This document shows, piece after piece, positions 1 through 59,105 of a stretch of 64,000 nucleotides of DNA. Each line of letters starts with the position of its first letter. The stretch's first letter is position 1. Source of the DNA: Daphnia pulex (taxonomy: Eukaryota; Arthropoda; Branchiopoda; Diplostraca; Daphniidae); assembly GCF_021134715.1 (NCBI RefSeq), contig NC_060021.1, forward strand, positions 1,116,001-1,180,000, read 5' to 3'. A program made the position numbers and the translations under genes. The notes under the pieces were generated by a model that was given only the letters and a program-made list of their open reading frames with translations, did no database searches and had not been told where the DNA came from.

Positions 1-1497
1 ATTGGCAATAGATGCGGATCGTTTGTGGCTTAGGCCATATAACTAAGACGGGATGGTTACAAGAAAAGGAGCGTGGCGTCCCATGTGGTATCTTTCTTTC
101 TTTTTCTTCAGGGATAATATAATTCTTAAGCTTTTGCACGTTGCCCATTAACTGAGTTCGGAAATCAAATTCAATTCCTTTCAATTTGATCAACGTATTG
201 GTGGAATTTATCCAATGCTCAATTTTAAATGACTGATTCAACGATTTTCCCTCATCTAAATCGCAATAGTCCAGGACCCCAGTAACATGTTGTGATATGA
301 CGGCCAAATGGATATCAAGAAATAAAGAGCAATTAAAGATGCGAGCCAATAACTGGTCCTGCCCAATTAGATCAGCAAATCCGAGATCGGCTATGCTGTA
401 CTTTTCTTCGAGTAAAAAGAATAGCATGTTGCTGTTCTCATTTGAGTATCTGGAGTTGGATGTTAAGAGCGCAGGTGAATAATCTAGAGGGTCACTGAGT
501 GACGACGTATCAAGTACGGAAGCGATAATTTCTTCCGGGGAAGTCTCTACAGATGCATCAACTTTTAAGCGCATAGGTTCGTAATCAGCTGGGGTATTCC
601 AAGATTTAAGAGATTCTGCAATTTCGTTCAATACTGCCAGTAAAGTAGGAAGCGGGAGAGGGGAATCAGCCATGGCCATCGCATTCTTCCAAACTAGGTT
701 AAAGGACAATGTAACCATCCAGCCTTGTGTTACAGTCTCCAGCTCTTGCACACAGCCAACATAAATGGCAGTCAAGTGAAACTTATGACTTTCGCCCAAT
801 TCACAATCAAAGCCCATAGATTTACTGCCTAACTGAACTTTTAACATTCCGCCAGTATGGCCACCTTCAATTGGGATTTGCAAAATCATACTTGCAAACA
901 TGCCTGAATAACCAAAACATAATAAAAAAAATACAAAGAGTTTGAATGTTTTATGAATGTCAGTCCCAAAATAGTAAAGTGATTGTATACCTGGCTCTCT
1001 CTTCAAAACACAGGCAGGCTTCATACAACCACCAGGTGGAATGAATGAAAGTTTGTCTAAATGGGCTTCAATAGCTAAAATGCCTGGATTAATTCCTAGA
1101 TGACACATAGCTGTTGCTGCCAATGATGAAATCCCATTTTGAAGGAAATTTTCAGGAAAAAAATTTACTGACTGGGCATCGATTTCCCTAATTTGGGTAT
1201 CAATCGTGGGATTGGTACCGCCTTCAATGCTGAGTTCTACTTCTGTGTCACTTTTCAAACGTTCAATATCCTGCAATAAACAACTTTTCTGTTTTCATTT
1301 AACTGTTCCTTAATCAGAGCAATAACTGAATATACCATCAAAGAAATCGGCACTGGAATGACTCCCACTTCATTGACACTAAGAGATTGAAGTACATCTT
1401 CATCCAAAGGGCGGCTAAAGGCAAAATCAAATGTGGATGCTTTCTTCCCATTCAGCTTCAGAGCTTCAGCTAAGCGTCCTTTATCCACCAAACTCAT
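1..1497 (-). CDS. 2OG-Fe(II) oxygenase-like protein, copy 1 (3' end beyond window)
   Basis: Three exons are read on the minus strand: 1336-1497 (start MSLVDKGRLAEALKL), 991-1270 and 1-903, the last running off the window. The introns have normal GT/AG ends and the phases join. About 448 residues are visible. The protein aligns block by block with the full gene at 54979-59105 (VPISL/VPFSV, DIERLKS/DVEKLKS, LVIWP near the edge), so the two are paralogs. The region after residue 100 has the layout of a prolyl-4-hydroxylase-type 2OG-Fe(II) dioxygenase core. The expected iron and cosubstrate residues are missing: the HxD site reads P139-A-C141, the distal His is Q200 and the 2OG-binding Arg is M210. 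It is therefore probably not an active oxygenase. The family call rests on remembered family patterns; the paralogy is directly visible. The substrate is unknown. Confidence 0.75.
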
Positions 1498-2627
1498 TTT
1501 GAATCAGATACTACTTAAAAAACAACATGTTACACACTGCAGTATTGCACCCACACCATTTTGGTTTGATATTTAAAATGAGCTTTAAGTTAAGGAATAT
1601 TTTAAGGGAAGGAAAGATCTTAGAAATGAGAAAAGTAATTACCTTTTTTTAATGAAGAGAAAACATTTCAATCTATAATGAAAGCCCAGTTTGTGCTTCC
1701 TTGAGTAATTCAATAAATATTTAATTCAATACTGTGCTGACTGCTGAACACTATCTTAATGAATGGGCTAATGCTGACACTATCTGAAAGGAAATATGTA
1801 ACAGGAAAACTTGGATTTCGGTTTTCACTTTACAAGTTTACAATTTTAAGATTAAATTTGTTAATTTGGGTTGAAAATCTCAGGACTCAGTCCACTAAGC
1901 AGTAAGCACTGACCAGCAAAAGCAGCAATCCGCCATTCAAGCCTTCTATTTCTACCACTTACCGCTGTGGGCCTGTGGCGCACTGGCGCTGCATAAGGCT
2001 ACATACTACATTAAGCCTAATCTAATTAGACTTTAAGGATAGACAATTCCAGCGATTACTTTCACCCCAAGAGAATTCTTGTGGTTTGCAAAAAAAAAAC
2101 GCGCTCCTAATGGCGATCTGGTGAATTCACTAAAAGATTCAAATCATGGAAGTAAAAATATTCTGACTTGAAAAAAATAAAATCTGCGTAACTTCTTTTC
2201 GTACCAGGCTTCGTACCGTGGTTACAAAATTCCGTTTTCGTATCGTGAATCGTGAATACTCTTTTTCCACGAAGAAGTGGGGGGTGAACTCAAATTTTTT
2301 TTAATAATCGGGACCAAGGTGTCTGGGGTCACCCCAGTGGGGTGAAATAAACCCAACCACTAACTACGATCAGGGTACCTTTGTATTTGACTAAAATTAC
2401 TTTATAAAATGAAAACAATAAATCACAAATTTTTCTAGGTTGGCTGATTTAATGAAATTATAAGGCGAAAATCTCGTTTTAATTAATAAATGACATTGAA
2501 ATTCAGATTAAAATACTTAAGCGAATTTCCCGTGGATTACATTATAGGAATCCAGCGTAGTTTAAATTAGCAACATAAACATTATAGTACGATACGCACA
2601 ACTTCCACAAGCTACTCCACTAAGTGC
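1498..2627. other. Intergenic, no gene seen
   Basis: AT-rich spacer between the start of oxygenase-like copy 1 and the end of the zinc-finger gene. It must hold the copy 1 promoter, but I see no clear TATA box. A short GGGGTCACCCC palindrome lies near 2327-2338 with GTGGGGTG just after it. I see no coding exon or recognisable repeat. Confidence 0.5.
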
Positions 2628-4255
2628 TCATTGGTTAAGATTCAGGAAATCATTCAACCGTCTTGATATAAAAACTTTTGGCCAAATATGGGGATCCTCG
2701 CTAGGGGAATGCCGGACACGAATCGGTTGTTGTGACTGAGATTCGGCGTTGATTGACGACTCCTTTGATGATTGTTTGGTAGAATCTGAACCATTTGATT
2801 TAACGCGAGTGCTGTCACTTGGTTTCTGTTAAATTCCCAGATTTTTAAAAATTATTTCGTCTCCGATAAAACATATATTGAAAATTGAGACATTACCCCT
2901 TTGGTTTGATTATCCGAGTGTACCTGGTTTTTATGGTATGTCATTGCAACCCTCGTTCTGAATTTCTAGGGAAAATAAAATACTTATTAAAAAGGTGAAA
3001 AAAAAACACAAACGAAACAAGAAACCAAGACACTAACCACATGACAATTGTCGCAGGAATAAGCAGGATTATCAAAATGTGCTGCAATATGTTTTCTCAT
3101 AGACGTCGTTGTCGTAAATCCCTGCAAAGTTATCAGAAATCAGCATATCAGTAATATATCTTTAAATACTCGAAAGCTATAATTTGCAATTAGAAGCTAT
3201 TTGCAATGAATTCCATACCGTTTTGCACACGGGACAAATGTGCAGAGGTTTTTTAACTGTAGAGACGCTTACATTAAGGTAGTCAAAATTCAAACTCTCT
3301 GTTCTTTTCTCAATCTGGGGCTTTCCAATTTGAAGCCGTGGCTTTTTAACCATGCTTTTGCAACCCCATTTTTCAAACGTGGTACTATTTTGAGTCGTTT
3401 CATCGTTAAAAGATTTGCTAGGATCGACTAAACCAACCGTCTTCTGAACAATCTGAAGAAAAAAAAAGGACGTAATTAGTAATCTCGCTTTAAACTCTTA
3501 AATCGAATTTGAATATACTACGTTTACATCCGATGCTGCTGCAATACTTTTCCTGATGATGCCTATTTTAGGGCAAAGGGAAGAATTATCACCCAAATGA
3601 AATTCCCTTCTGTGATTGAAGACAGTCTGCTTTTCTTTAAAATTCTGAAAAGAAAATTAATTAATTAATAAGGAAATTTGAAGTTATTTTTGTCTAAAAG
3701 GTCATAAATAATGACATTGCAACACAAGTTATTTAGGCTGCTGTTTAGCTTAGAAATCCAGATAGCTAGATGTGGTAATTTGTTATTTATACCTAGCTTT
3801 CAACATCTTTAATTGCACTGAAGTTGAAAGCAACAAAATATACACTTTTTTGCATGGAATACCACAATAATTTAGATGATACATAGGTTATTCTTGAAAC
3901 AAGACTTGAAAGATAGCAAAAAATGGTCTTACCGAGAAATTTTCTGGCATATGCTTTAGTAACACAGATTTTTGAGAAAACACCTGTTAAAAATAACAGG
4001 GGAATAAATAAATACAGTATATAACGAAATCCAACACAATTGCCATATTACTCTGCCTTCTTTTTCACGATGCTCCTCTTCAGTGTGCATAACCTTGTGA
4101 GTAATTAGACTTTCTTGTTTTTGAAAAATCTAAACATCAAAGTAACAAAACATTATTCTAGTTCACTTCATACGAATATAAAGCATGTATATAAAAAGAT
4201 GTAGTACTTTCTCACAGCAACAAGGATTTCCATTATTGATACCAGTTTCAGACAT
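2628..4255 (-). CDS. Two-finger C2H2 zinc-finger protein
   Basis: Eight exons join in frame to 294 residues: 4208-4255, 4052-4129, 3933-3983, 3522-3644, 3219-3452, 3038-3121, 2897-2965 and 2628-2825. The start is ATG at 4255 (MSETGINNGNP) and the stop is TGA at 2628. Two adjacent canonical C2H2 fingers are visible: C173-C176-H189-H193 and C201-C204-H217-H222. Finger 1 is cut by an intron after CPVCKT and finger 2 after CDNCHV. The N-terminal 170 residues are basic and low in recognisable motifs; a Cys cluster (residues 12-14) and a later HxxxH look like a decayed finger. The C-terminal tail is rich in Ser and Gln. Two fingers suit nucleic-acid or protein binding. I cannot name an ortholog. 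It is preceded at about 630 bp by the end of the esterase gene on the same strand. Confidence 0.75.
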
Positions 4256-4883
4256 CCTTAAAAGTTAACTCTTGTTCCTTTACTTCCAGTAGTGGGTTAT
4301 TCAAACCGTAGCTAAAAGAGGATATTAATCCCCACTAGAAGAAATAATGACGAACTTTAAGAGCTAAAATCAATATAACTTGATAATAAAAATACACGTG
4401 GTTGAAGTTCAAAATTAATTCAGTCTCGCGCAGTCGACAGAGCGACAGAGCTCACGAAGTTGTGTTGGTTCTGTTGATTTTCGACGTTGCCGGATCAAAA
4501 CTATATTTCAACTGGAAGGGGAAAAAACGGATGTGAATATGTCATCGATATTTCTTTCTTCCGCAAACAATTTAATTTAATTTAATGTATTAAAAACAAT
4601 ACAATTTCCGTAAGATTAATTAACAGATGGTGAATGGCATCAGTGTCTATGTTCGTATATCGAAAAGATTTTGTTTTGCATCCACGAACTTAATCGTTTT
4701 CGGTTTCTAAATGACAGTAGGAATAATGGCTCTGAAAGCGCTCACCAATATTGATTGACACTGAACAAGATCTTTTTTTCGTTCTGTATTGGTGCATTAT
4801 CATATGTTGGGTATAGGGGTATGCGATTTCTTTATTACTGGAAAGATGTTCGCTACATTTGAAAGTGTTTAATTGCAAGGCTT
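4256..4883. other. Intergenic: zinc-finger gene promoter region and esterase 3' end
   Basis: About 630 bp between two minus-strand genes. It contains the 5' region of the zinc-finger gene and the 3' region of the esterase. No further exon or repeat was recognised. Confidence 0.45.
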
Positions 4884-7603
4884 TTATCGTATGCAGACAT
4901 CGGCATCATCTCCCGTGCATCGACAGGGAATGTATCCGTTTCTAGCGTCGTCAGCAGCAACAGTGTACGTTTTCGTGTAATCAATCTTCGACTCCCAGAC
5001 ACAGTCGATATCCATGTAGGCTTCATTTTCCCGGCTGTATGGTAAAAATTTCGGAAGGCCGGGTAATAACTTGACGCCCTCAGGGGTAGGATTTCTAGTT
5101 TCATTGTAGTAAAAAAAAGTTGTTAATTAATCATTTGACAGTTTTGGCATGGAAACGTCCAAGTTACTAACCCGTGAATGGCGAAATTCGTCCAAACTTG
5201 GATCATCTTCAAAGACAAATCTTTTTCTCGTTCGTCCAAAAACGGTGGGTCAGACGGGAAGGGATAAATGAACAAGTAAATCATTTCGTCGGCGTGACAG
5301 ACTCCTGCGTGCACATCGTATGATATTTAATGATTTATAACATGCTCCAAGATATTTAAGCGCAAATCGGTTACCATGAGGAATGGGTGGATAGTTGCCA
5401 GCAAACAGGTAAATGTACAGACTGTTTCTTCCCTCGTAGTTGAAGGCGTACCAATAAGAATCAGGGTTGTGCAAAGAGTTGAGACGAACTGTTTCGTAAC
5501 CGGCTGATTTCAGAAACAGAACACCCAACATCTAATTTTTTTTAAATAATTTAAAATGAACATAATTAGATGATTAAAATTGTTTTATGTAGTGAATAAA
5601 ATGAAAGCTGACGGCATACATCCGTAAGGCCAGGAGTCATGGAAGTAAAATCCGTCATGTCAGCATCAGCCAGGTACTTGTCGACTAAGGCATCGGCCAA
5701 GACACCAGTATCATCGCGGATATCTGTAAAGAAAAATACGTTTTATTTGTAGCCTAAATATTTGTTACAAGTCTAAATTTTCAGGGACTACTGCGTTTAA
5801 AAATACTTTTAAATCTCTTTAAAATGAACGTGCAAAAATAATATGGATACAAGAATCTTACGGAGTGCCTTCAAAATGTTGGGAACGAGGTCGACTTCCA
5901 AAAATGTTCCATTGACGGTCATGTTGTTCGGTTCCAAATAGTCCTTCCAAGCGTCTTCAAATTTCAAAAAAATTTAGATAAAATTAAATAAAAATTTCGA
6001 TTCAATCATCTAAATTCGTATAGACAATTTTTAATTTTTTAACAATTTATTTACAGGCTAGCACCAAGACTCCTTCGTGTTTATTAGCGCCAAACCTATG
6101 AGAAATGTTCATATTAAGTCTTGGATCGATTACACACGCAATGTAAATTCAATTACAAGACTGGAACAACCGAGTAGTCTCCAGATTCAAACTGCAGTCT
6201 CGGCTCGATTTCAAGTATCCGTTGGGCTCCGGCTATTTGAATAACGGGATTTGAAGCGCCGAATCCCATGCCTCCATTTTTCAGATCTTCTTTCTGTTGG
6301 AATTAAAAAAATTCAAATATTTTAATTTGAATGAATTGCAAAAAGCAGTTAAAAATTTCTTACGCGAAATTCTCCGTAGGCGTCGGTAAGGTTTTGAGCG
6401 TCTAGGGTCCGAACGCAATTCAGTAAGGCATCGTAAGGCTCGAGAGGACATCCGGCGATTTCTGCCACTCTGGTGGAAGCTTTTTTCCCTCGTCCGTCAC
6501 GATCGACGGCCCACTCGGCCAAGACGGAACCGCTCTCTCCGATGGCACGATGAAAGAGACCTTGAGCTTGTTTGGCCAGCAACAGAATAGACACGCTGGC
6601 GCTGCCGGCACTTTCTCCGGCGATCGTCACCAGGTCCTTGTTGCCGCCGAAATATTTGATGTGTTTCTGAACCCAGCGAAGGGATTCGATCTGGTCGAAA
6701 ATGCCGGCATTGCCCGGCACTTCGTCGGTATCGAAGGACAGGAAACCTGTCGACACAAGTGAATAATGTTTGAATAATTAGAAACATTTATTATTGATAC
6801 TGTATGTTATGCAACTGACCTAGAGGGCCCAAACGGTATTGGATGACGACCAAGACGACGTCTTCTTCCATGAATCTACCGGGCAGATATTCGACGGCTT
6901 GACCCGATCTAAAAGAGCCGCCATGAATCCAGACGATAACGGGTAGGAGCTCAGTTGAATTTGTATCATCAGTAGTTAACTAATTTCCCCAAAAAAAATG
7001 TTGCGTCAGAATTATTTTTGGTTTTGAATGAGTTGTTTCACTTACAGATGGGGTGTAAATGCTGAGCGAAAGGCAGTCCTCTTGCCCTAGAGGCAAATGT
7101 TGGGTGCAACCTGCATTGTTGAAAACGGCTTGCTGGATCTCATCCATCGGATAAGGTTTTTTCGGTACGGGTGGCTAAAAACAATTCAAACATTTCAAAA
7201 TAGATTCTTTTGAAAAATAAGGCGTAGCTAATCTTTAAAAAAATTTCAATTAATCTGAATAGTCCTAAACCGCAATCAATGACCAAAATTTACTTTGAAT
7301 CCATTTGGTTCTAAATTCTTAATTATGGCATCGTATAATAATAAGAAATCTCACTAGAAAGCGCGTTTCCGGGGTGGGCATCTCGGCGTAGTAGACACTG
7401 CGGAAGCCGTAGAACGTCCGGTTGGTGTAGACGGAGGATTCCCCCGTGCCGTTGAGAACACCGTAGCCCGGGACCGTCCAAGTCACATTTCTGGCTTCCG
7501 GCCGATCTGGTAATTCCGTTGGAGGTGTGATTTGACAAGAAACACCGACCAATATAAACGAGGCCAGCGACAAAGCTGCGACGAACAACAACGGACGTCT
7601 CAT
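4884..7603 (-). CDS. Secreted carboxylesterase (alpha/beta hydrolase)
   Basis: Eleven exons join in frame to 588 residues: 7355-7603, 7046-7174, 6820-6949, 6364-6746, 6157-6293, 6055-6095, 5862-5954, 5620-5723, 5375-5531, 5172-5304 and 4884-5094. The N-terminus is a signal peptide ([20 protein letters not shown]). Type-B carboxylesterase landmarks are all present: [12 protein letters not shown], the oxyanion-hole HGG at 135-137, the nucleophile elbow GESAG with Ser215, the acid Glu350 in FGANKHEGV, and the catalytic His478 in GVCHADE. An AIHGNPTPEG block follows near the C-terminus. The triad is intact, so an active secreted serine ester hydrolase is expected. Arthropod members act on xenobiotic esters, lipids or juvenile hormone; the sequence does not tell which. 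The short Cys-containing tail after the hydrolase core ([12 protein letters not shown]) is unusual. Exon 3 uses an acceptor at 6950; an alternative one at 6981 would put a stop in frame. Confidence 0.9.
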
Positions 7604-16777: not shown

Positions 16778-19700
16778 CTAAAGCGGTTTGGAATCACCGC
16801 GACGGAATCGCGAGGTTGGAGTGGCAACGATGTCGGGCGAGTCGCGGGAGTTGATGGTCAGTGAGCCGCTGGACGGTGGCGACGGTGTGGCCGTCGGTCG
16901 GTGCTGGACTCCGTGATGGGCCGGCTGAGACTGGACTTGGCCCATCAGAGGCGTTGTGGCCATCATGCTGGGCATGAGGTAAGACGCCGCCGGCGGATAG
17001 GCCGAAGCGGCCGCTGCCGCCGCCGCCGCCTGGTGGTAGGCCATGGCCGCCCCGGAAGTCAACGACAGCCAATGGTCCAGGTGGGCCGGCAGTCCGGCGG
17101 CGGCCGCCGCAGCCGCCGCCACCACCGCCGACCCCCCGCCGTTGTTGTTGTTGTTGTTGTAGCGCGGAGTAGTTGCAGCAGCCGCCGGAATCATGGCCGA
17201 GAATTCCTGCTGGAATTTGCGCAGCTGTTGCGACGCTTCCATCTTCTCCTGGCGACGCCATTTGGCCCGCCGATTTTGAAACCAGACCTTCAAATTCAAA
17301 TCATCAAATCAAAATATTCAATTTCAAATTTCCCGGCTACTTTTTTCTTATCTTATCAATGGCTATAAACTAAGTCGAACATAAGGGGACCGCTGATTGA
17401 TTCGAACTTGGCGCCATGATTGCCAATAGTTTTGAATGGCCGCCAACCCCCCCAGAAAATAAAAAAAAATGAATACAACTTGACTCTTGTACTATTTAAC
17501 ACACTTATATCCGGTATATAACGAAGCAAACTCTTGGGTGGGGCCGGGAATGATGGGATAATGGGAGCAATCAAACGCCCATTGAGCAAGTGCTGGCTTG
17601 ACAGATGGCCGTCGCTTTTTTCTTCCCCCGTACCATTTATAGAGCCAAACTTCTTTTTATACAGAAAACATTAGGGAACAACTTTTTTTGATTTTTTCTT
17701 TTTATCTTTTTCTTCTATTTTTCTGGAGTGTTGAAGGAGGGTATGTATAGTTGCCATAGCTCCCAATTGCGTCCAATTGGCCACTACCAACCAACCGAGA
17801 CCCTTTTTTAGACGATTTCATTATTAGTTTTCGAAGTCTTTTGAAAAGAGAAAAATAATAATAATAAGTACGAAATTGGGTGAAAATCGAGCAGATGATT
17901 ATTGCGCCATCTGGGCTCTTTTCAACGATTGTATTACGTGACGCTAAATTTCATTCTTTTTTTTTCCCTTGTTGTTCGTCCCCACAATTGAAATGATTGA
18001 ATTTGTATGTCTCTTTTGTTGTATTAAACATTTCCTCTGATTTTATTCCCTGGCGTTTGAGAAAGAAATTTAGAAATTCAAAGAATATCTATTTCTACAT
18101 CCTCATGATTCATTCATGTATAAAAATGGTTAAGATGTTGGAAAAAAATTAATTTGCATTTTGACTATAGATGCCTGATATTATATCATATCCAGGCATC
18201 TCGAGTGTATAATCATCTCTCTAAATCGTATCATACCGTCAATTGAAAAACTGTATCGTCTGAGCGGGCTAAATAAATAATAAATCGTCTTTTGTGATTG
18301 AGCCGATCGGAAACTATATAGGCCTACTACACCATTCTCAAATAGAAAAAAAAATCGGAACTCTATTATATTTTAAAGAGGGTGAAATCAACGGTTTAGA
18401 TGTTATTACATGACATATCGTCAGACTATATAGATGGCGCAAATAAAAGGGATCAAAAGGGATATCTCTATATCTACTACAAAACTGCATCTGATGGTCT
18501 ACACACGTTTATATACATGTATATAGTCCCAGCACATCTGATACCGGAGAGCTGTGATTGAGATGAATAGACTACGCGTATAAATACAAAAACCCTCCCT
18601 TCACCCTCCTTAACATTCCCCCCCTCTCTACCGACGCTGCTGGAGCGTGTGTTATTATATAACATACAGCACAGACACAGTCGCCGATCTCTATTGAATA
18701 TGCTGTGCTGATCGTTGACTTGCGCTCGATATATACACACACACAATCGCCGCTGTGTATATTTTATAGACACACACACACAATTCTAGACTAAATAAAT
18801 GTATACACATCGGACTCTCTTTTATCCCCCCTATAGACTTCTGTTTGGAACAGCTTTTATATTTTCTCTCTTTTTCTTTCATCATTTTTCCCTTCGTCGT
18901 CGTTCGATCTTTCTATTTTGATCAAATGTATCGGGCCTCGATTGTTATTAGAGTTTGAATGCGTGCCGTGTGTTATCGGACCACTTAGCCTCGGCTCTAG
19001 ACGGTCGATTAGCCTAATAACTCGTTTGAGCTAGGGCGGGGCCTTATATTCGTTGGCTGTGCTGCTGGCGACATCATCCCATACACACACAGATGATGCT
19101 GCAACATGCAATGGGGGGGGAGCAAACACAAAGGAAAAGCTTTGCTTTTCTTTCTTCTTCTTCTTCTTCTTTGGTTTTTCAACCCAATTTTTACAAAATA
19201 TAATGAGCCCTTGATTCTTTTTAACTTTTAGAAATTCGTTAACTTTGCGCTGATTAATAATAATGTCGTCTACAATTTGGACTGGGCCCGCGCCATCGTT
19301 GAGTCTCATCAAAGAAAATGCGACACAAACGACATCAAAAAGTTGGATGGGCAGGCGCAGAGCAGCATTGAATAAACGAACAGCATTGCGCCCAGCAGCG
19401 CTGCTGCTGCTGGAAATGAAAGCGGAAATTTCCTTTTTCGTGTCCCCGATTTGAGCTCGACAAAATGTATACAACAAGAAAAGAATCTACTAGATCTCGT
19501 CTAAATAACGCAGTTAAATGTTACATGTTATTACAGACAAGAGAGGCCGGGAATAGACGAAGTCAAATCGGATTTCTCTTTTCTCGGCCATTTTGATTGA
19601 TGCTGTTAGATAGAATAGATGCACATATAGCACAGGTCCCCCATTTATTATTTATTCCGGGACCGGATATGAGTTCTAGACACTGTTATCCAGCATATAG

Positions 19701-21252
19701 CAAACCCTCCGTGTACGGATGGATGGACCCAATAAGAGAAAAAAATGAACGAAAATATAACGAAACGAGTGTGCTGGCCTATAAGACAAAAGTGTTGTCG
19801 CACTTGACGTGATTGCGTGTGTACACCAGTCACCAAGGGCCAAATAAAACTAAAAATAGGCAACTCCATTTCATATAATAATACGCCTAATAATAAATAA
19901 TCCAGCCGGTCTATGTATAGTCTAAACTTTGTTGCTGGATTATTATTTATAGTCGAAACATTTTGTAAACTTATTCTAGCTTTTGTCTAGGACATTTAAT
20001 GATTGGACTCTCTCTAATAAGTAGACCCGAATAAATGTATAAGGGAAAAGCGACTTATATGTAACTCTGCGTGTAAAAGGGGGGAATGAAAACAAGATCC
20101 AAAAAGACTTAACAGATGAGCAATTAAAAAGCGGGAAAACCAAATCCGATTTTCGCCGCAGCTAATAAAGTTGAACCGCGTATTCAACTACAAATAATCA
20201 TATCCCGACTTGTGTACATAAGAACTTGAAACCACAAACTTTCCTTTGAAATAATTACCCGCGTGTAGATTTTAAATGTGTAGTAAAACCAGACTTAATT
20301 ATAGGCCCGCGCTTTTATAATTAATTTGAATTTTAATGAAAAATGTAACTCACTTGAACTCGGACTTCCGGCAGATTGACTTTCATGGCCAGCTCCTCGC
20401 GACTGTAGACGTCCGGGTAGTGGGATTTCTCAAAGGCCCGTTCCAGCTCGTGCAGCTGGAACGTCGTGAACGTCGTCCGGTTGCGACGGTGTTTCTTGCT
20501 GTTGCCGCCGCCGCTGCTTCCAGCCCCACCGCCACCTCCTCCGCCGGATCCTTCGCCGCCGTTCATCCCTCCGCCCTTGACGGAAGGCTCATCTTCATCG
20601 CTGCTCAACTCGCCGGCCCGCTGATGACCCAGCAGCGACTCCTGATGCTGGACGTCCGTCTCATGTGGCTGATTGAAGTGATGGTGGTGGTGGTGGTGGT
20701 GATGGGCCTCGGACATTTCACGGAAGAGTTTGGCCTGGTGTCTAGCCCCCGGCCCGTCTTTTTCTGAATTTTAAGAAATCAATTAAATGTAATTCAATTG
20801 AAAATGAATTGAAATTTACCTTTGGGGTGTTGATTGTTGAGTCCCAGAATGGCCTCGATCGTGTACAAATGGCTGACGTGATGATTGAGACTCAATTTGT
20901 TGCCGGTGGAAGTGGCCGGGACTTCGTGTTGATGCTGGGCCGGGACGGCCAGCAGGGCTGGCTTGGCCGGCGACAGGGAATCGGCCACTGTCAGCGGAGG
21001 ATTGACGGGTACTACCGTCGACAGAGCGGCCACCATATCGACGTGTGAGCGACGCTGTTGAGGCCCTTCGTCGGCCGATCCATTCGTCTCGATGTCGACG
21101 CTGCTGCTGTGACTCCGGCAGCTGTCGGCCGACGACCCACTCCTGCTGTTGAGACTCCCGCTACTCTCGTTGCTATTACTATCGTCCAGCATCGAAGTAG
21201 ATCGCCTCTTATTATTCTCCACCGCCTGCTGTGGTTGTTGTTCCGTCATCAT
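16778..21252 (-). CDS. Rx: Retinal homeobox transcription factor (Rx/Rax)
   Basis: Three exons join in frame to 450 residues: 20820-21252, 20354-20763 and 16778-17287. The first ATG is at 21252 (MMTEQQPQQ). An octapeptide (YTIEAILGL, 130-138) is followed by a PRD-class homeodomain at about 236-295: [20 protein letters not shown], then [20 protein letters not shown], then [17 protein letters not shown]. These residues, including Gln50, are diagnostic of Rx. The homeodomain is split after residue 46 by a 3.07-kb intron. Low-complexity tracts include nine His and long Gly runs in exon 2, and poly-Asn and poly-Ala in exon 3. Rx acts in the nucleus in anterior brain and eye patterning in animals. 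The protein ends [11 protein letters not shown] with no visible OAR motif, although Rx orthologs commonly have one. It points away from homeobrain, about 20 kb off. Confidence 0.95.
17288..20353 (-). other. Large Rx intron inside the homeodomain
   Basis: This 3.07-kb intron has donor GTGAGT at 20348-20353 and acceptor TTGAAG at 17288-17293. It interrupts the homeodomain codons between RVQ and VWFQ. It is far longer than the 50-100 bp introns of the flanking genes, so it may hold regulatory DNA. I see CA/TG and TA dinucleotide runs (about 18735-18782) and a TTC repeat near 19150-19170, but no exon. Confidence 0.7.
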
Positions 21253-36070: not shown

Positions 36071-36072
36071 AT

Positions 36073-41162: not shown

Positions 41163-44100
41163 ATGATGAGCAGCCTGACGGAACAACATCCGACCGGATC
41201 GTCGGTGATGACGTCTGGCAACAAGTCGCGGGTCTACACGATCGACGACATCCTGGGCCGTCGTTCCAACAACGTCGAGCCCAGCATCGTCCCCGCCAAA
41301 TTGATCGGTATGTTTTTTTTATTTTTTTATTTTTTGGAATTCCCCCATCGGAAAATTATGTAAGAGTTTGCTAAATAATTGGCGGTTTAAAAACCCCCAA
41401 AGAAAAAAAAGAAAACGCCCTACGCATTCCGATTTTGTCATTTTATTTTATGACATTTTTTATTTTGTTTTATTATTTAGACCAGCAAGTCAATTCTTCG
41501 AAATCCAGCGACGACGACGAATCTCTAGTCATGGACGAGGAGGAGGACGACACCATTTTCCGCTCAAAGGTAAAAATAATAAAACATAATTATCTAAATA
41601 AGACGTAGGATAATCGAATGGACCTTGGAATAATGTACGGAATGTAATTTAGTAATCCGAATTGGCCAGATATGTTAGCCAGAAATAATAAATTAGACAT
41701 GACCTTGTCTTTGCAGATTATAAATATGAGCACACATCCCTCAAGACCATAGATTATAAGCCAGCTGATATGCTGATTAACTTAATTAATTTTTTTTTCG
41801 ATTATTTTATTTTATTTTTGTTTTCCAGCTGAGAGATGGTTCGCTGGACGAGATCGACTTGTCCGTCTCGTCGGCCGAGAAGCCGGGCAGCCGCAAAGTG
41901 CGCCGAACGCGGACGACGTTCACGACCTTCCAGCTGCACCAATTGGAACGGGCCTTCGAGAAGACCCAGTATCCGGACGTCTTCACTCGCGAGGAATTGG
42001 CCATGCGTCTCGATCTCAGCGAAGCTCGAGTTCAGGTAGAAAAATCAAACCAACTTTTCACGTCATCATCATTTACATCTGATTACAGATCAAATGATTT
42101 TTCAGTGATTTTTCAGTGATTTTTAAAATTGCCGTTTTGATTATTTGCTGGGCCGTGGATCGATCATTTACTTCAAAATGATGATCTAAATAACATCCCA
42201 TCTCATTTCTCGGCGGGTCTAATATCATTTCGATCGCCCTAATTGTCATGCAAATTCACTACGGATGTAATAATACGGCGCATTGTACATATTCACAAGT
42301 GTCTAGGGGGGTATATAGAGCGCTCCCTATTACATGTATTATCGTCGTCTAGCTATATCGTTACGCTTCTTATTCGCCAGGGTGTGTGACTGTGTGTGTG
42401 TGGGAATATACACATATCCAGCCCCACCCACACGGGTTTTAGGGGGCTGCTGTGAATCATATACATCTACTCTAGTTACCATAAAAGGAGGGGGGGATTA
42501 TCATCGGTTCACGGGTGGATAGATGTTGAATGGTGACTTGATATCAATTAGCACCCAATTGCTTTTTATATATACTATATATATATCTATCCCTCTCTTT
42601 TATGTACTATTATATATTCCCCTCTCTCCGTGAACAGCCTCTCGGTCGCATTTGACTGTATAGAATTTCTCTCCCCCCGTTTAGATATTCTCGAGTGGTA
42701 GAGATGATGAGGAGCTGATGACTGAACTGGGAGAGGAAAAAAAGAAATCCGAGTTGTTCAGCATAGGGAACTATCAGCCACTCGAGAGTTGACAAAAGGC
42801 TAAAAATCTCCGAGAGACTAGACGACGACCGGATTAGAAAAAAAGTAGCCCAAAAAAAGAATTGATATTAAATTCTTTTTGAATCTTTAATCACTTTTTT
42901 TCACCCTCTCTACTACTACACACAACAACGTTTTGTGTGTTGCCAGTTTGTTTGATTGTCTTCCTGCCTTGCACACAAGAACAAGTTGAGATCCTATATA
43001 CAGTCGAGTTAGTTAGTGGTACGGGCCTCCCTCGGCAAAGCCGTTAACAATCGAAACTCTGATTAGCCTACACACAGAGCAGAAAGTGGGTGGAGTAGTT
43101 GAGAGGAAAGTGGATGGATTTAGAATTTGAAATGTCGAAGACGTCCGGAGTGGATAGAGACGAAAAGGACTGGCGGTTGTTTACCACAGCCGATGATGAG
43201 CGGCAAATTAGCCGCCATTATATATTTCTATAATATGTAGCTACTGTCTAAAGATGGTGGGAATTTTTTATCCGGAAGACCGTGACCGCGGGCGGATGTA
43301 TAGTCCTTTTATTTCGTCCATCTTAAAAACTTCAAAGGGACCATCTTAGATATAATAGATTCCATCCTTTTTTTGATTTATATTGTCTGTTAGGAGTTTC
43401 TTTGATAATCCTTTTGCTCCTAGATATTTGTCCCACTACTCTTTTGTCGTATGCAAATTCATTGAAAATTTTTAATTTAATTTTTAAACTAAACATTTTT
43501 ATTTTATTTTTTGGCTTGTATAGGTTTGGTTCCAAAACCGACGGGCCAAGTGGCGCAAGAAGGAGAAGACCATCGGCGGTGACTCGCCCACTTTTAGCGC
43601 ATCTCATTTACTCGATCGGCTCTCAAGTAAGTTCATTACATTTCAATTTAATAACAATAATAGAACATTTTTATTAACTGATTTATTTTTAAAAATCACC
43701 AGGTTTGGCTGATGGAGATCTCCAACACGCCGGAACACGGGCCGGCCAGCACGACATGTGGAGTCAGATCGGACAACAACAACAACAACAATCGCAACAA
43801 CAACAGCAACACCACCACTCGGTCAATCCTTTCCTGACGATGCGCTTGCCGCACGGCAATTTATTTCCTTACTCCGGCGGAATTGCCGGCCATCCGGCCT
43901 ATGCTTCCGCCCATCCGGCCGCTCTGGCCGCCCACCACGCAGCCGCCGCTGCCGCCTGGAACAATTTGAAGCAGAGCGGAAGCCCATCGTCAGTGGCTGC
44001 CGCCGTGGCCGCCGCATCAGCCGCAGCCGCCGGATTCCAGCCGCGCTACTGGCTCCACCCCCACTGGCCGGCAGCAGCCCATGCCGGCGTATTCGATCCG

Positions 44101-49343: not shown

Positions 49344-49400
49344 TTATGAAGATGTCCACCAAAGTGCACAGTTCCAGGCCGAGATCAGAGAGACGCCACC

Positions 49401-51339
49401 ATGGAACTTCTTCTTACGTTAGTGATGGCATCAGTGCTGATGACGACGAACGCCCTAAGTGTGGAAGTGGATCAAGTGCGACAACTACAAGAAAACTACG
49501 TGAGTCTTTCATTTTTCCTATTAAATCCGGATTCAAATCAGATAAAATTCAAATTTGTCAAAATTTAATAAAAAAAATAGGAAATTTTGGCTGGCAAATT
49601 CCATCAACTGGAGACGAAATTCCAGGAACAAGAATCGACACTCAGGATTTTTGAAAAACAGATCCAGGATAATTTGAACAAGAATTCTGAGCATCCACCA
49701 CTCAGCCAAAACGCTCTGCCACGGACTTGTCAGGCGGCCAGAGCAGCCAATTCTTTTCTAACATCCGGGTTGTACTGGATCGACCCGGACGGATCAGCAA
49801 CTGGAGATGAACCCATTCGCGTCTACTGTAACATGAACACAGGTGAGTCGCATAGAATAACCAACAGTTGTAAAATATATTCAGCTTATCCAATGTCTTA
49901 TTTTGCTGGAATTTTCTCACTGGTCTTGAATTTATCCACCGCGATTCAAAGGTTCGACGGAAGTATTACACGACAGCGAATCGCCAATGGATTCCGGCCA
50001 CTGCGCTAGTCCCGGTTGTTATTTTCGTCACATTAACTACAAAGCGTCTTCAAGACAAATGGCAGCGTTAGCCGAACTCTCCGTCCAGTGCTCGCAGTCC
50101 ATCAAGGTAAGCTATACTGAAGACAATTTGCCATTAAGTTGTATAGGAATAATGTCCAGCAGTCCATCAACCGGTTCTTCGAGTTGGTGATTTCTTGTAA
50201 TGCTTTATGTTATTCCATATAAAGTGACTGATATATATGTGGCCTGGTTTGATGTGTTACAGTACGATTGTATCTCCTCACCTTTGGAGCGCAACGGCAT
50301 TTCTTACGCTTGGTGGAACGACCGGAATGGAAATCCCCAATATTTCTGGTCCGGCAGCAATTCCAGAGTTCACGTCTGCCAGTGCGGCATCGAGCAAACG
50401 TGTTTCGAAAACGACGTTCGCTGCAACTGCGACTCCAACGCTAAACTTCAACTAGTTGATCAAGGCATGAATTTTTTAAATCAAAGCCAATTCAATGATT
50501 GAAGTGCTGCAACATTAAAAACGTTACCAATTTTATATTCACAGGGGTTATTACTAGAAAGAAATTGTTACCAATAACACGCTTGAATTTCGGAGGCACC
50601 CACCGGGCTAACTCGACTGGCATGCACACTCTAGGAAGATTCGAGTGTGACGGCCGTTTGTCATCCGCTTTGAATAAAGGTTTCCCGACCTCGTGTGCGG
50701 ATTTGTGGCGTAACGGGTTCGTCGCTAACGGACTCTACTCGATTAAAGGCAGCAAACAGGTGGAGAAAGTCTATTGCGACTTCAATAAGTTGCCCAGCGA
50801 ACCAGGTAACAATGAAACTCATTATCTTTATACCTTTGCTTCTCCCTTCTAATGAAAATCACGATGATTAATACCACGTATTTTGATTTGAAGATTTTCA
50901 AACGTGGATCGGATACGAAGATGTGAAATCGCATCCAGTCTTTTTCCAGGTGCAAAAGGATGCAGATGTATTGCCACATAATAGCACGATTCCCTTTGAA
51001 ATAGAACTACTGAATGTTGGCAGTGCGATGGATATTTCCTCGGGTGTTTTCACAGTGCCCCGCTCAGGACGCTATTTCTTCACGTTGTGGGGAATTAAGG
51101 ATGAAGCCGCTAAAGGGACAGAATTATCATTGCAACTGAATGGGGTTCAGATCGCTCAAACTTCGAGTTCTTATGGCGGTTCGTACTCTACATATTCCCT
51201 CCAGACGACTTTGAATTTGCAAGGGGCTGATCAAATCTCTTCATCCCTCACAAGTGCAGCGATCCACAAAAAATCCGTTTCTACGTATTCCACATTTTTT
51301 AGTGGATGGTTGTTAGAGGAAGACATTTTTAAGAACTGA
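49401..51339 (+). CDS. Secreted coiled-coil / fibrinogen-like / C1q protein
   Basis: Six exons join in frame to 474 residues: 49401-49499, 49581-49842, 49952-50106, 50263-50464, 50545-50805 and 50894-51339. The ATG sits in a strong CGCCACCATGG context. In order: a signal peptide (MELLLTLVMASVLMTTNALS), a short heptad-like helix (about 34-68), a fibrinogen/collagen-C-propeptide-like block with GLYWIDPDG and RVYCNMNTG (about 82-121), a CASPR/neurexin-IV-like block with FWSGSNSRVHVCQCG and CNCD (about 173-250), a second YCDF-type block (about 270-325), and a C-terminal C1q-type beta domain with SGVFTVPRSGRYFFTLWG (about 335-470). C1q domains normally trimerise, so an extracellular lectin-like or recognition role is plausible, but the ligand is unknown. 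The intron after exon 4 starts with GC rather than GT. Confidence 0.85.
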
Positions 51340-52386: not shown

Positions 52387-52395
52387 TATAAAAAA
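52387..52395 (+). promoter_or_regulatory. TATA box of the LRR gene
   Basis: TATAAAAAA, 139 bp upstream of the chosen ATG at 52526. An in-frame ATG at 52409 lies only about 20 bp from it and would fall upstream of a start site about 30 bp away. This is why I start the protein at 52526. Confidence 0.5.
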
Positions 52396-52525
52396 TCAAC
52401 AACTATTGATGACATTTTTCAACGTAGTATATCAGTATGTTAGCAACCTTCGAACTGCATTTATCGGACTATACAGCTGCTGTAAACTTCACTTTTCCCT
52501 TGGTTTTTCCGTGCTGTTTAAAACA

Positions 52526-54145
52526 ATGCCTAAAAAGTGTGAAATTGAATCCCTTGTTAAACTGTGTTTAAGCTGCATTAAAGAAACTATTGAAAATAGT
52601 AAGTTTGCCGTTAATTTACCATCAATTCAGAAGGATGACAAGGAGATTTTAGTCAGCTTAGAAACGAACAAGCCACTTCATCAATTAATACGTATGTCAA
52701 TCACGCAAACCCTTTTTCAAAATTTATTTTCCCTAATTGTGAAGTTTTCTAAATTCATATTTAAAAAATGTGTTCAGCCGTTACGCTCTCGGAAGAAATC
52801 GTTGCGCTTTTCACCAGAAGCCGAAAACTAACCGATGCAAAAATCCTCGAACATCTCATCTCTCCGCGCATCCAAAAGTTATATTTTCCTGTTTACTCTG
52901 ATGATTACTTAGTTTTTTTCCCCAAGCTTGGAAATCTGGTAATATTGAACCTAAAAAACTCTAGAGTGGGAAACAATTGGTTAAAATACATTGGGGCTTA
53001 TTGTTTCAATTTAAGGTACGTCAGCAGCTTATCTTAATTATTTTTATAATTATTTCTTTTTTAAATAGAAGAGATTATCAATCATGTTTGACAATTGCAG
53101 GTCGCTGAATTTAGAAAATTGTATAGACGTGACCGATACTGGAATTCAATGGCTGTGTCGTGGCACCGAATATCCAGAGATGCAAAAAGAAAGCCCTAGA
53201 CTATGCAAGACCCTACAGAGATTAAGTATTTTATACACTAGTGTTACAGAAAGAGGAATTCAAATTGCTCTCAAACATTTGTTGTCCTTGAGAGTCCTTC
53301 CAAATTATTTTACTATTGAAGCATTGGTGGAATTGGCTCAAAGGGCCATACATTCAAAGCGACTCGGCTATTACAACGATAGGTTCTGTACATCAATACT
53401 GTATACCCCACGTTATAACTTGTTTAGAAGTGATAGGCTTCGACTTGCACTCTCTTTGTGCCATTCACTAACCCGTGTCGGAATTCACGTGATCAAAGGA
53501 TTGAAAGATAGTGATCTCTTATGCTTCAAAGTGTGTATTAATCTACAAGGACTAAAAATGTTGAAGTGCCTCCCATTTTTTCCAAATGAAACTGAAATCA
53601 CTTTTGATGGTGGCGTGGCCCCACTTCTTGAAGCATTTGGAAAATCGTTGGAGACTCTAAGCTTGGAGTATTTCGATTCAGCCCCTATTTCAACCATAGC
53701 CGAGTTTTGTCCTAATTTGACTTGGCTGCACATCAACAACGTAACGGGCAACGAAAGAGATCTTGGGTGTATCAAAGAGAAAGTGCCTATGTTTAAGGAT
53801 CTTAAGTTTCTTTTTTGTCATGACGATATCCAAACCGACATTCTTCTTCTACTGTTATCTTCGCCTTCACTTCAACACATATCCATTTCTGATTGTGATA
53901 CGCTCAGTGATGAGGTTTTACAGAAGGCCGCCATCAATTATTACGGGTTTCAGAACCTCCAGAAGTTGCAGCTATCTCACTGCAATTCGGTGTCGGGACG
54001 TGGTATTGAAGCTTTACTGGTGGATAGCAATCCAATAGAAAATATCAGTTTTTTTGGTTGTAAAAATTTGGGGTCCGCAAACAATTGCAAATGGTCTAAG
54101 TTGATTGTTAAAAACAATTGGAACTTGAAATGTTTCGTTTATTAA
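52526..54145 (+). CDS. Leucine-rich repeat protein (AMN1/F-box-LRR type)
   Basis: Three exons join in frame to 482 residues: 52526-52691, 52778-53015 and 53101-54145. The start MPKKCEIESLVKL is preceded by AAACA. LRR units of the cysteine-containing kind are clear: LVILNLKNSRV, LRSLNLENCIDVTDTGIQWL, LQHISISDCDTLSDEVLQ and LQKLQLSHCNSVSGRGIEAL. These match the repeats of AMN1 and FBXL proteins, which act as substrate-recognition scaffolds in ubiquitin ligases. I do not see a clear F-box in the N-terminal 60 residues, so it may be an F-box-less relative or have a diverged one. There is no signal peptide or membrane segment with this start. An alternative start at 52409 would add 39 residues. 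The 3' end faces the oxygenase-like gene on the other strand. Confidence 0.8.
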
Positions 54146-54978
54146 TGAGCGCTACTAATTCCACTGACAATAATATACGTGTCTACCTGATGTTCATAAT
54201 CTGATTCGTAACAATTTACTGTTTGCCGTGCAACCTTGAGTATAATCTAGCTAATAAAATACTGTTGGAAAATAATCGATGAGAGTTCATTCATTTTTAT
54301 CGAAATTATCTTTAATTGCGTTTGTTGCTGTCAACATTAACTTCCTCTCTACTTACCGCTACTTACACAGTCTCTCTTGAAATATCCACCGAATCGAAAA
54401 GATAACTTGAGGTTAATTTGCTAATGAAGTTTTAACACGTGTTATTTCAACACAGAGCGCAAGTAAATAGTGATAGTTTACTGCAGTCTCAATTGGCGTT
54501 TTGATAATAGAAAAATATAAATGCTCTCTAAATGAGGCTATATATAAAAGCGCTAGCATTACTGACATCGCCTTATTATGTATGGTATTGGTTTCTTTTG
54601 TCTATGTCATGGTGTCAATTGGCTCAAACCTCAAAACTTACCCAAGTGGGAGCACTGGGAGCTATAGTCATATCTACTACTATTCACAAATGGCCTAAAA
54701 CGGTTCGATGGAATCAAGGAATATGAGAAACATGCATGTGTATATGGCTTTTATCGGTATGGATAGATATATCATAGATTTATTTCAGATTTAAAACATT
54801 TCAAGAGATCACAGTTCACAGCCAAATTAAATTTCCAGTTCTCGACAATTGCACTTTTGGATTTGTTGCTCAGCAACAGAAAAGGTTCTAAAAATTATTC
54901 GAAACATTATAGCAAAGAACCATCAGCTAAGTACAGAGGGGGGAAAATCTTATTGGCGGCTCCAGTTTCCAAGTTAGA
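54146..54978. other. Convergent intergenic region, no gene seen
   Basis: The spacer between the 3' ends of the LRR gene (plus) and the oxygenase-like copy 2 (minus). AATAAAA at about 54254-54260 may be the LRR gene's polyadenylation signal. A 64-codon hydrophobic frame near 54532 has no support. Confidence 0.5.
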
Positions 54979-57900
54979 TTAATCAGAAATAACGATGATT
55001 TCTGGTTCGTTTCCATCACTCTTCATGGCCGAGCATAAAACATTCTCCACGTTATGATGCATGTCCGACAACCTTTTTGACAGATCGCTCTCCGTGGATT
55101 TACTTTCAAAATTATGGCGTAGAGAAAGCATTTCAGATAATTCTTGTTGCACAATTTGAAATCGCTTCATCTTCATCTGATACATGTCTTGTGTTTTCAC
55201 GATCTCGCAGAAGGCACTCCTGGCTGACCCCATCGCCTGGACTTTTAAGCTACACCACCCGTTCTTCAAGCACACCTTAGTTAATTCATCTGCAAAACTG
55301 CGCGCGTGAAAAATACTGGCCAAACTGTGATAAGTCATTCTCTCCTCCGAAGAGCGGAGAAAAACTTCCACCTCGGGATACTGCGGCAACTGGGCGCAAG
55401 GTTGCCCAAACGAGAAAACGGGCTCTTCGATAGTTTTCAAGTAGTCGATATGCCGATCCAAGAAAACATAAAATGTGGCCAGACTGGGAGGAGATGTGCA
55501 GGCCAGCGGCCAAACGCTGCTACAGGAGACGATTTTTTTCACCAATAGATTTTCTTCGTTCAATGGGACGCTGGTGCATATCTTCTGGCAAAATGTTTCC
55601 AACGACACGTCGTCCCCGAGCCAGAAAAGACATTTGGCAATTTTCACGACAAGTTTTATAGTAGGCGCCAGTAGTGAAATTACATCTTCTCCGACAAATT
55701 GACGGTTCAGGTCCCTGTACACAGTAAAGCACGAAGAAACAATCTTCAAACAGGGCTGGGTCACTGAATCTATCTTGTAAAGATCGAGAATTAGTTGACA
55801 TAATCTCTTTGTAGACATTTTTGAAAACAAGTGGGAAAAACCAATGGAAACATTTTGCCGGTTGTTATCGTAAAGATTCTTTTCCATCTTGATAAATGTT
55901 TTCAAGAAAACAGTGATGTTAACTTGAAGCGGGTCAGTACTAGAACTAGGCGTAGCAAAAGACCTCTCCCGATCCAGTAGCAGGCAGAATCCATTAATCC
56001 AGGTTGTGATCAAAGCAGTGCGTGCTTCACGAATTAGTTCGCAATGTTGATTATGCAGCTCTAGCTGTGACAGATTTTCCAGAAAATCGATCCTCTTCGT
56101 AAAATCCAATTTCTCGAGTTCGCCTGATGGTGGGATTTGCTGAGTCCCAAGATTTTCTTCACTGGGTGTAATGAGTTGATTGAACATACACATCACAGAT
56201 AAAATCTGAGCCTCAATCAGGCTGGTGAGCATCGACTTTCCTAAATCGGATGAAGTGGCCAAATCCCAAAATTCGCCAGACAACAAGAGCACATCAATCA
56301 GGCCGTTTTCTTGAGCTGGTCGCTCTGAAGTGTTTGGACCAAGGCTGCAGATCTTTTTCATGAGAATTTGGATCAATTCCGGATCGCCGAGTTGAAAGAA
56401 GCTGCTCACAACCGCTACGATGACATGCTTGATGGGCCCAGGTGCGTGCAGATTGCACGAAGGTAGAGCACGGAACAATTCCTGATAGAGGTGCATGCAG
56501 GAAGGTACTCCTCCAAATCTGATCCGCCTCCGAAGGTCAACAACCAAACGGCACTGTTCGTAAGGATCCAGATGAGGGAAAAGTGTTGCGAAACCAACGA
56601 TTCGTTGAGCACTGGCAGTTTTCGGATCTGCTTCACAGTCGACAACGAAATTGGCGTACGAATCAATATCCTTTTGTCCGAGGCTAGCAATAAAGGACGC
56701 GTCGAGTTTAGGAAGGATGAAGGCAACACGATCCATAATTTGGAATGCACCGTCTGAACAGCAGCGATCCCTGAGGTAGCCAGCAAGGTTAACGATAAAT
56801 TCCATCTGATTCGACAGTCGAATCGGAGATATCATTTTCAACACCAAACGTGAACAAGCGGCCCATCCTAGAGAACAAGAAAATTATCATCAGAGGCTGT
56901 TTAAATTAGAATATGAAAATGCTTATTCGTACCACCAACTCGACACTCGAATTCGGCTATTAATTGAGCCACCCCATTGCTGCGAATCCCTTCGTAACAA
57001 AGGCTTTGGGATTCTCCGCATAGCTCTGCATTTCGGAAATCCGTACTCATAAGTTCCAGTAACTGAAGTCCTTCTTGTCGGGCTCGAAGAAAGACGCAAA
57101 GATGCAAAAGACGACAGGTGCGCTCACCTGGAGCGCAGGTAGAATCCATAAATACCGCCAGCGGATCCTCGCAGCAAAAGGAAATAATTCGACGTAGAGT
57201 TTCTATCGTCTTTTCGTGACTCGCGGTATGCAGCTGGCGTTCCATTCGATCCAATAAGTCGTCAAACGCATAGAGGCATTTGATGCGAAATGACTGATGT
57301 CTCGGCCATATCACAAGAACTGGTTGCTTCTGATAACAATGCGGAACACGGTCGCCATTTTCATTTCCTTCTTCTTGGTTAGCGATGTGGCATCTCGATT
57401 TCAGCTGGAAATTGCTTACGATCTGGTTAGTGTCAACTAGAATTCTTTTAAACGGCAATAACGTATTGCTAGAACTGATCCAATGCTCCATCTGGACTGC
57501 GCCGATACACGTTTCTTCTCTTGATGAGTCGGTCGACATCTCCGGCTGACTCATGATGGCCAAGTGAACGTCAAGAAAGTTACCGCACAACAAGAGCCGG
57601 GAAAGAAAAACATCGTGCCCTCTCAAACCAAAAAAGCTGAGGTCCGTCAATGGATACTCGTTCTCTAATAGAAATGCGAGCATATCCACTTTCGGGTGCA
57701 ACTTGTTGGTATTTCTTGGATTTTCTACGCAGTCACGAACATCAATGCCTGGGGGGGAAATAATAATTTTGGTTTTAAGCCACATAATTTATAATTCAAA
57801 TTTTGTTATAGTACTTGATGAATATTCCAGGTACGTCTGATAATAACGATCAATATTGGCTATTTTCAAGTCGAAATGTAACTGGCGGGAGACATCGTGG

Positions 57901-59105
57901 GTCAAAACCATAGGCGAAGGTTGCAAAACTGCTTCAACTTCTATAGAATAATAAATTAGTATTAAATATGATATAATCACCAGTGTACAGTAACAGATAT
58001 CTCCTACCCTGCAAGTTGAACGCATCCGCGTTACAACTGATCGGCTGGGTAACTTCGGTTCCAGTCTCATAAACGGTAGGTATTTCCGGACAGTCAGAGT
58101 TTGGCCTTTGCGTAACTTGACTAAAATGTGTGAACCAGGGGTTGATCGAAGCTCGAATTTCAGTTAACAATTGAAGAACGTCTGGGATGACGAGCGGTGA
58201 TAACGTCTGCGGTATTTTTGTAACATAAAACGCATTTTTCCAGACAAAGTTTATCACCAAAGTCGCTCTCCATCCAGATGTGATGGGTTCTAATTCGTGC
58301 TTACAACTGGAACGGAAAGCCGTCAAAAAGTGACAGTGGTCACTACCTTTTTCAAATTCAAAATATTTGGCAGTTGAGCCATGATCGATCTTTAATCGCC
58401 CACCAAGGTATCCATTTTGAACAGGAAGTTGAAGAATCATTACAGCACATATTCCTGAATTAAAACAAAGAAAAGTTACAGAAAAATTGTTTATCAAATT
58501 TGGTTATTCGATATTTAATTAGTGTAAGTCTATTTATTACCTTGCTCTAACTCTAATTCACAAAGATGTTTGTAGTGCCCCCCTGAATCATAAAGCATTA
58601 ATTTGTCAATGCAGACTTCCAAATTGTCACTGTCAAGATTCTCAACAAGCCAGCCAAGTTGCAGGTGGTACAATGCTTGCACAGAAATGTCAGCAAGAGT
58701 TGTGTGGATAAAGTTTGTCGGGTGTAGTGCTGATATTTTAGAGCCATCAATTTGCCATGCATTTTTTACATTCGAGTCCACAACAACATTCAGTCCCTTG
58801 CCATGAGGTGCAGGCTCAGAGATACTCTTGAGTTTTTCAACATCCTTTGAATAACATTATTAAAAATAAAAAATAGATTAGTACGTTATTTGTGCAACTG
58901 CATACATTCATGAGACATAATAATTATGATACAAAATACAATAACTAACCTCCACAGAAAAAGGCACTTGGAGATTTCCTAATCCTTGAATTTCAAAGGC
59001 ATGTAAAACTTCTCCATTCAATTGCTGTCCCCATGCGAATTTACCAAAATCTGAATCTTGATTTTTCAGCTGCAATGCCGTGATGAGACGGTTTCGGTCG
59101 ACCAT
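54979..59105 (-). CDS. 2OG-Fe(II) oxygenase-like protein, copy 2 (full length)
   Basis: Six exons join in frame to 1,245 residues: 58950-59105, 58541-58844, 58008-58454, 57815-57940, 56933-57748 and 54979-56867. The start is MVDRNRLITALQLKNQDSDF. Residues about 75-230 carry the prolyl-4-hydroxylase-type dioxygenase layout: NAWQIDGSKIS, LMLYDSGGHY, VMILQLP, GGRLKIDHG and HELEPITSGWRATLVINF. The distal iron ligand H206 and the 2OG-binding R216 are kept, but the HxD site reads H145-L-C147, so the acidic ligand is replaced by Cys. The remaining 1,000 residues are helical with no domain I recognise. It is paralogous to the truncated gene at the left edge but has extra introns around NLQG-EVEAV and SIDVRD. 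It may be an inactive or altered oxygenase used as a binding protein. The substrate is unknown. Confidence 0.8.

Follow-up and report, generated by a model that had tools for sequence, protein, structure and literature searches.

Iron-site loss in two paralogous genes from a large family of probable pseudo-oxygenases

Introduction

Non-catalytic oxygenase barrels are already known. CRTAP, the second barrel of OGFOD1 and the N-terminal domain of vaccinia C16 are 2OG-oxygenase-like proteins in which the barrel has been kept for binding. In the superfamily as a whole two histidines are needed to hold the iron; halogenase relatives dispense with the acidic ligand but not with the proximal histidine. 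CRTAP, OGFOD1 and C16 represent single proteins or domains, whereas the family described here, with a minimum of 38 places in a single genome, has mostly lost the site.

The two genes considered here (copies 1 and 2) lie in a window of 64,000 nucleotides of Daphnia pulex DNA (C5:1116001-1180000; genome size 133 Mb). The predicted fold of the N-terminal domain, as modelled for copy 1, is shared with the HIF prolyl hydroxylases (PHD2/EGLN) and with Pseudomonas P4H, at approximately 7-17% identity in structural alignments and with the iron ligands lost from the copies. In sequence, the copies resemble long bacterial 2OG-Fe(II) oxygenases (PF13640; for example WP_100923131.1 from Thiodictyon and WP_331748791.1 from Streptomyces), with which they share a block N-terminal to the barrel as well as the barrel with its GG.L and C.HE..P..SG.R blocks; the likeness is weaker downstream, in the LEH.Y....L.F..LKG.D and LVLWPR blocks. 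The H-x-D motif, the distal histidine and the arginine are near-invariant in the bacterial proteins, whereas the window copies lack the motif. The copies also have a longer C-terminal half than the bacterial proteins, without a significant match there.

Gene models

Models of both genes were built from the DNA, that of copy 1 being finished with the left flank of the window (L005). Copy 2 (54979-59105, minus strand) consists of six exons with GT/AG splice sites and an open frame of 1,245 codons. Exon 1 (58950-59105, start codon at 59105) was delimited by its open frame, its GT/AG boundaries and its match to exon 1 of copy 1. Exon 2 (58541-58844) encodes the first half of the oxygenase domain and carries the former HxD motif, and exon 3 (58008-58454) encodes the second half of the barrel. 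These are followed by exon 4 (57815-57940), by exon 5 (56933-57748), which encodes a middle region whose LxxExxYxxxxLxFxxLxGxD and LVIWPR blocks resemble those of the bacterial oxygenases, and by exon 6 (54979-56867), which encodes a C-terminal region of unknown fold that ends in EPEIIVISD and is not significantly matched by the bacterial profile.

Copy 1 is also on the minus strand and runs past the left edge of the window. Completed with the flank, it has four exons with GT/AG splice sites and 1,337 codons: exon 1 (1336-1497, start codon at 1497), exon 2 (991-1270), which carries the former HxD motif, exon 3 (1-903 up to the window edge, continuing leftwards at L005:8635-9000) and exon 4 (2,303 bases at L005:6259-8561, left of the window).

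The two proteins are 31% identical over 1,106 columns (BLASTP, E 8e-155) and are thus homologous along much of their length. An earlier sequence-only reading of the window, which had proposed two homologous genes of the same orientation, one at the left edge and the other at 54979-59105, was borne out in this respect, and all of the residues that it quoted were present under the same numbers in the spliced models. No internal repeat was listed in self-comparisons of the C-terminal halves. The comparison of copy 1 with copy 2 contained an out-of-register match (residues 622-809 of copy 1 to 913-1102 of copy 2, E 5e-12), by which a repeat in the C-terminal half is only suggested.

The window also contains homeodomain exons (PF00046) at 16781-17308 (minus strand, just under the cut-off), 20336-20770 (minus) and 41790-42116 (plus), which we take to be Rx-like and homeobrain-like and hence to belong to the known Rx-Hbn-Otp cluster. 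A carboxylesterase frame (PF00135) was found at 6352-6777 (minus), a C1q-domain frame (PF00386) at 50887-51336 (plus) and an LRR-like frame, just under the cut-off, at 53069-54142 (plus). Glycosyltransferase frames lie to the right of copy 2 at 60275-61219 (minus, PF04488) and 63359-64000 (minus, PF01762).

Bacterial relatives and predicted fold

A tblastn search with the barrel of L037, a paralogue on C11 (824k), gave 22 plasmid records with a best E of 9e-10; in 17 of the 20 that were listed, the matching stretch is annotated as 2OG-Fe(II) oxygenase. Five of these bacterial proteins were taken in full (753-802 residues) and all five scored above the PF13640 cut-off. Their alignment (A2) was scanned against bacterial and archaeal genomes, yielding 361 relatives; 80 of them were examined, and together with the initial five they make up the 85 bacterial proteins used below. 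The 85-protein profile matched copy 2 with 87.5 bits (residues 35-235), L037 with 106.8 bits (residues 5-440, exons joined end to end) and copy 1 with 49.1 bits, followed by a second match of 16.1 bits at residues 298-460. The stretch behind the barrel of copy 2 gave 2.6 bits, which is not significant alone. No further significant C-terminal match to this profile was found in copy 1 (past 460), copy 2 (past 235) or L037. The earlier description of about 1,000 residues of unknown architecture therefore needs trimming at its near end, where the first part is recognizable in copy 1, and stands further on.

Pfam scans of single exons and of the spliced N-terminal domains of both copies, covering all but about 120 residues of copy 1 to the left of the window edge, gave no oxygenase or PF13640 match above the cut-off. 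The same held for an oxygenase match in five paralogues; PF13640 appeared only with the bacterial relatives. Sequence searches of the PDB with L037 and with profile A1 returned no oxygenase, viral contigs searched with profiles A1 and A2 contained no relative, and neither did genome contigs searched with A1. No NCBIfam name was obtained above the cut-off for the three bacterial members scanned. Clustering of the frames that flank the 80 bacterial loci brought out no neighbour gene that was convincingly conserved, the clusters being read as shadow frames.

The structure predicted for copy 1 is in favour of a P4H/PHD-like barrel. A fold search with Foldseek led to P4H/PHD oxygenases, followed by cupins, vicilins and other beta folds with E above 0.001; among the matches listed the PHDs tied with other P4H-type oxygenases, the likeness being one of fold alone. 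Confidence was low at the former HxD stretch (pLDDT < 50 for residues 95-129 of the model, including a 28-residue intron read-through). The fold matches included PDB entries with P3H1/CRTAP (the matched chain may be P3H1), OGFOD1 (with a bacterial model as the query) and C16. Separate genes in the genome that match PF13640 (L001-L003) are presumably PHD-like. The double-stranded beta-helix of the 2OG-Fe(II) type that had been proposed for these genes is thus supported by the predicted model, the fold search and the bacterial profile. The barrel homology indicates that copies 1 and 2 are related by descent to the long bacterial-type 2OG-Fe(II) oxygenases.

Register and residues of the iron site

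L037 has a complete site, reading G-G-Y-A-P-I-H-C-D-N-E-K-E-P-G and then C-E-H-E and G-W-R. The corresponding motif stretches of copy 2 (G-G-H-Y-K-H-L-C-E-L-E-L-E-Q-G) and copy 1 (G-G-C-M-K-P-A-C-V-L-K-R-E-P-G) are equal to it in length and align without gaps. The H-x-D columns therefore correspond to Leu146-Cys147-Glu148 in copy 2 (codons at 58557-58565, minus strand) and to Ala140-Cys141-Val142 in copy 1 (1007-1015, minus), and the register taken from the profile alignments to the 85 bacterial proteins agrees.

In this register the copy 2 site reads L-C-E...H206...R216: the proximal histidine is replaced by Leu146, Glu148 occupies the acid column, and the distal iron ligand His206 (58297-58299, minus) and the 2-oxoglutarate-binding Arg216 (58267-58269, minus) are kept. 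The copy 1 site reads A-C-V...Q200...M210 and has lost all four residues, with Gln200 (746-748, minus) in the distal-histidine column and Met210 (716-718, minus) in the arginine column. The H-x-D(E) and distal-histidine triad is accordingly incomplete in both copies, in agreement with the earlier proposal that both copies have lost iron ligands; its placing of the distal histidine and arginine columns also holds. No other HxD was found at the ligand columns; where copy 1 has H124-L-D126, the two bacterial proteins aligned with it have E-L-Y or D-F-Y. Among the bacterial relatives the histidine, the aspartate and the distal histidine are each present in 85 of 85 and the arginine in 84 of 85. 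The middle residue of the motif is cysteine in both copies, in L037 (H-C-D), in L014 (H-C-E) and in L039 (H-C-H), and the bacterial motif is H-R-D in 83 proteins and H-Q-D in two.

The family and its tree

A search with residues 1-617 of copy 2, merged by place (E up to 1e-3), gave at least 38 family places, genes and fragments together: 14 on C5, ten on C10, four on C11, two each on C4, C8 and C12, and one each on C1, C2, C3 and C7. The window pair is not special, being two of these. Thirty of the 38 places were aligned; six were left out because of uncertain splicing (L031, L038, L042, L043, L046 and L047) and two as fragments (L136 and L137). The proximal histidine is present in four of the 30 and the distal histidine in 19. 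The acid column holds glutamate in 13, aspartate in five and another residue in 12 (spread over V, F, S, K, C, N, H, Y and G), and the arginine column holds arginine in nine and lysine in 14. All four site residues occur only in L037; the other 29 have at least one replaced, in most cases the H-x-D itself. No HxD was seen by eye at the motif of the eight omitted places where it was readable. Altered but non-empty sites were observed in L039 (C12:1921k; H-C-H...H...R) and L014 (C5:1754k; H-C-E...N...W). A three-histidine site is found in some other iron enzymes.

A tree was calculated from 27 rows from the genome (three near-duplicates left out) and 13 bacterial rows. The genome rows fall on one side and the bacterial rows on the other with support 100/100. 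Copies 1, 2 and 3 (the last described below) group weakly (80/18) and the group dissolves when the motif columns are omitted, so that the view of copies 1 and 2 as sisters is not upheld. On the tree without motif columns the minimum numbers of label changes, which are approximate in view of the long branches, were three for the proximal histidine, four for the aspartate, seven for the distal histidine and four for the arginine. These changes make it probable that the iron site was lost in steps and on more than one occasion.

The tandem members L021, L022 and L023 (C5:1297920-1319573) differ by one change between L021 and L022 and by none between L022 and L023 over 517 codons; by this near-identity the array is very recent or homogenized. 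The intron between the barrel halves is absent from L024, L025 and L028, which were read as intronless.

Constraint and decay

Copy 3 (C5:1210914-1215053; L053, L007 and L027) lies approximately 31 kb to the right of the window, and its exons are 96-99% identical to those of copy 2. Its exon 5 contains a one-base frameshift; copy 3 may be a recent duplicate that is possibly decaying, or the frameshift may be an assembly error. Copies 2 and 3 differ by 33 synonymous and 41 non-synonymous changes (dS 0.042, dN 0.014, omega 0.34, Fisher p 1e-5). The last exon, exon 6, which encodes the C-terminal region, is constrained between them (omega 0.24, p 9e-5), and the N-terminal part alone gave omega 0.48 (p 0.11, not significant).

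In the C10 clade, in which the site reads T-F-D/E...C/Y...K, three of the four pairs compared gave low omega values over the barrel half (0.25, p 0.0009; 0.21, p 0.0001; 0.32, p 0.005). The remaining pair gave 0.45 (p 0.14); all pairs are drawn from four genes and are hence non-independent. The low values indicate purifying selection on the barrel in at least one ligand-less clade. Four pairs of the C5 clade showed no significant constraint in the barrel half, where the changes are too few to decide. Over the whole stretch, omega ranged from 0.37 to 0.65 in the other differing pairs.

Some family members are decaying, as is seen from the frameshift in copy 3 and from the fragments L136, L137 and L138. 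The fragment at L136 (C8:3730401-3731700) adjoins what appears to be a frame of a copia-type retroelement. L138 (C5:1338801-1340600) is an exon 1-2 fragment beside a separate frame, presumably of a neprilysin-type peptidase, and three weak family matches (E 0.19-0.21) lie to its right, extending to C5:1360146.

It might be supposed from these remnants, and from the omega values of 0.55-0.65 in some pairs, that copies 1 and 2 have themselves lost the iron site on the way to becoming pseudogenes. This is rather unlikely, since both have GT/AG splice sites and frames that stay open throughout (1,337 and 1,245 codons), copies 2 and 3 differ under significant constraint, and constraint is also seen on the barrel of a clade without the motif.

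Discussion

Copies 1 and 2, and with them most of the family, are probably non-catalytic pseudo-oxygenases kept for binding. The suggestion in the sequence-only reading of a pseudo-oxygenase adapted for another job is supported as the likeliest account: site residues are lost, the frames of both copies are open and there is constraint in some members. Hydroxylation by either copy is unlikely to judge from the aligned residues, because copy 2 lacks the proximal histidine and copy 1 lacks every ligand as well as the arginine. Only one of the aligned members has a complete active site, and most members are for this reason probably non-enzymatic.

An altered but live site was also considered, in which Glu148, His206 and perhaps Cys147 of copy 2 would bind a metal or 2-oxoglutarate, the protein acting as a different enzyme or as a 2-oxoglutarate sensor. 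The distal histidine (19 of 30) and a basic residue in the arginine column (23 of 30) are indeed retained far more often than the histidine of HxD. A live site is nevertheless improbable in view of the change of the proximal histidine of copy 2 to leucine, the absence of all four residues from copy 1 and the variability of the acid column across the family. Partial metal binding by copy 2 through Glu148 and His206 is conceivable.

The sequence-only reading had taken H145-x-C147 of copy 2 and P139-x-C141 of copy 1 as the ligand motif, with the proximal histidine kept in copy 2 and a cysteine that had replaced the acid in both copies before the duplication. His145 and His206 are both present in copy 2, but this register is very improbable: the bacterial proteins and L037 place H-x-D one residue further on, at 146-148, His145 falls outside the motif and its equivalent in copy 3 is arginine, and Cys147 is the x of HxD, as in the intact H-C-D of L037. 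In the acid column copy 2 has glutamate and copy 1 valine, and therefore no shared Cys-for-Asp change is seen. Another fold with a chance likeness to oxygenases, as might be suspected from the lack of Pfam matches for the scanned stretches of the copies and of an oxygenase in the PDB sequence searches, can be dismissed almost entirely given the score of copy 2 against the bacterial profile, five of whose proteins are PF13640-positive, and the P4H/PHD oxygenases returned by the fold search.

For the reading as non-catalytic binders we envisage the following course. The family would have descended from a long 2OG-Fe(II) oxygenase with an N-terminal P4H/PHD-like barrel and a long C-terminal region, a form that appears to be still intact in bacteria and in L037. 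One or more site residues have been replaced in all but one of the aligned members, the window genes retaining open frames and a recognizable barrel. Copies 1 and 2 would neither bind iron nor hydroxylate; from the loss of the site together with the constraint we infer a present role in binding for the barrel and the C-terminal region. The likeliest such role is that of a scaffold, the alternative being that of a decoy or of a protein competing with the intact paralogue for its target. Scaffold and decoy roles are guesses, and that of a competitor is a guess that we regard as somewhat doubtful. With His206 and Arg216 in place, the old pocket of copy 2 may still accommodate 2-oxoglutarate or some other acid.

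More tentatively, and as a possibility that we would not yet favour, one active oxygenase may have expanded to at least 38 loci with piecemeal and repeated loss of the site and with purifying selection on some of the products, giving a lineage-specific repertoire of pseudo-oxygenase binders or decoys with a few altered-site members (L039 and L014). Such a repertoire would be comparable to pseudokinase expansions. None of the titles and abstract openings found concerned the family of copies 1 and 2, and the scale seems new, with one complete site among 38 places (30 of them aligned) in one genome.

If most members are non-catalytic, the annotation 'oxygenase' would mislead for the majority of those aligned. 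The genome would then hold a graded series of barrels, from L037, where the site is complete, by way of the partial sites of L014, L039, L040 and copy 2 to copy 1, where nothing of it is left, and such a series would allow one to test why an oxygenase barrel persists after its chemistry has ended.
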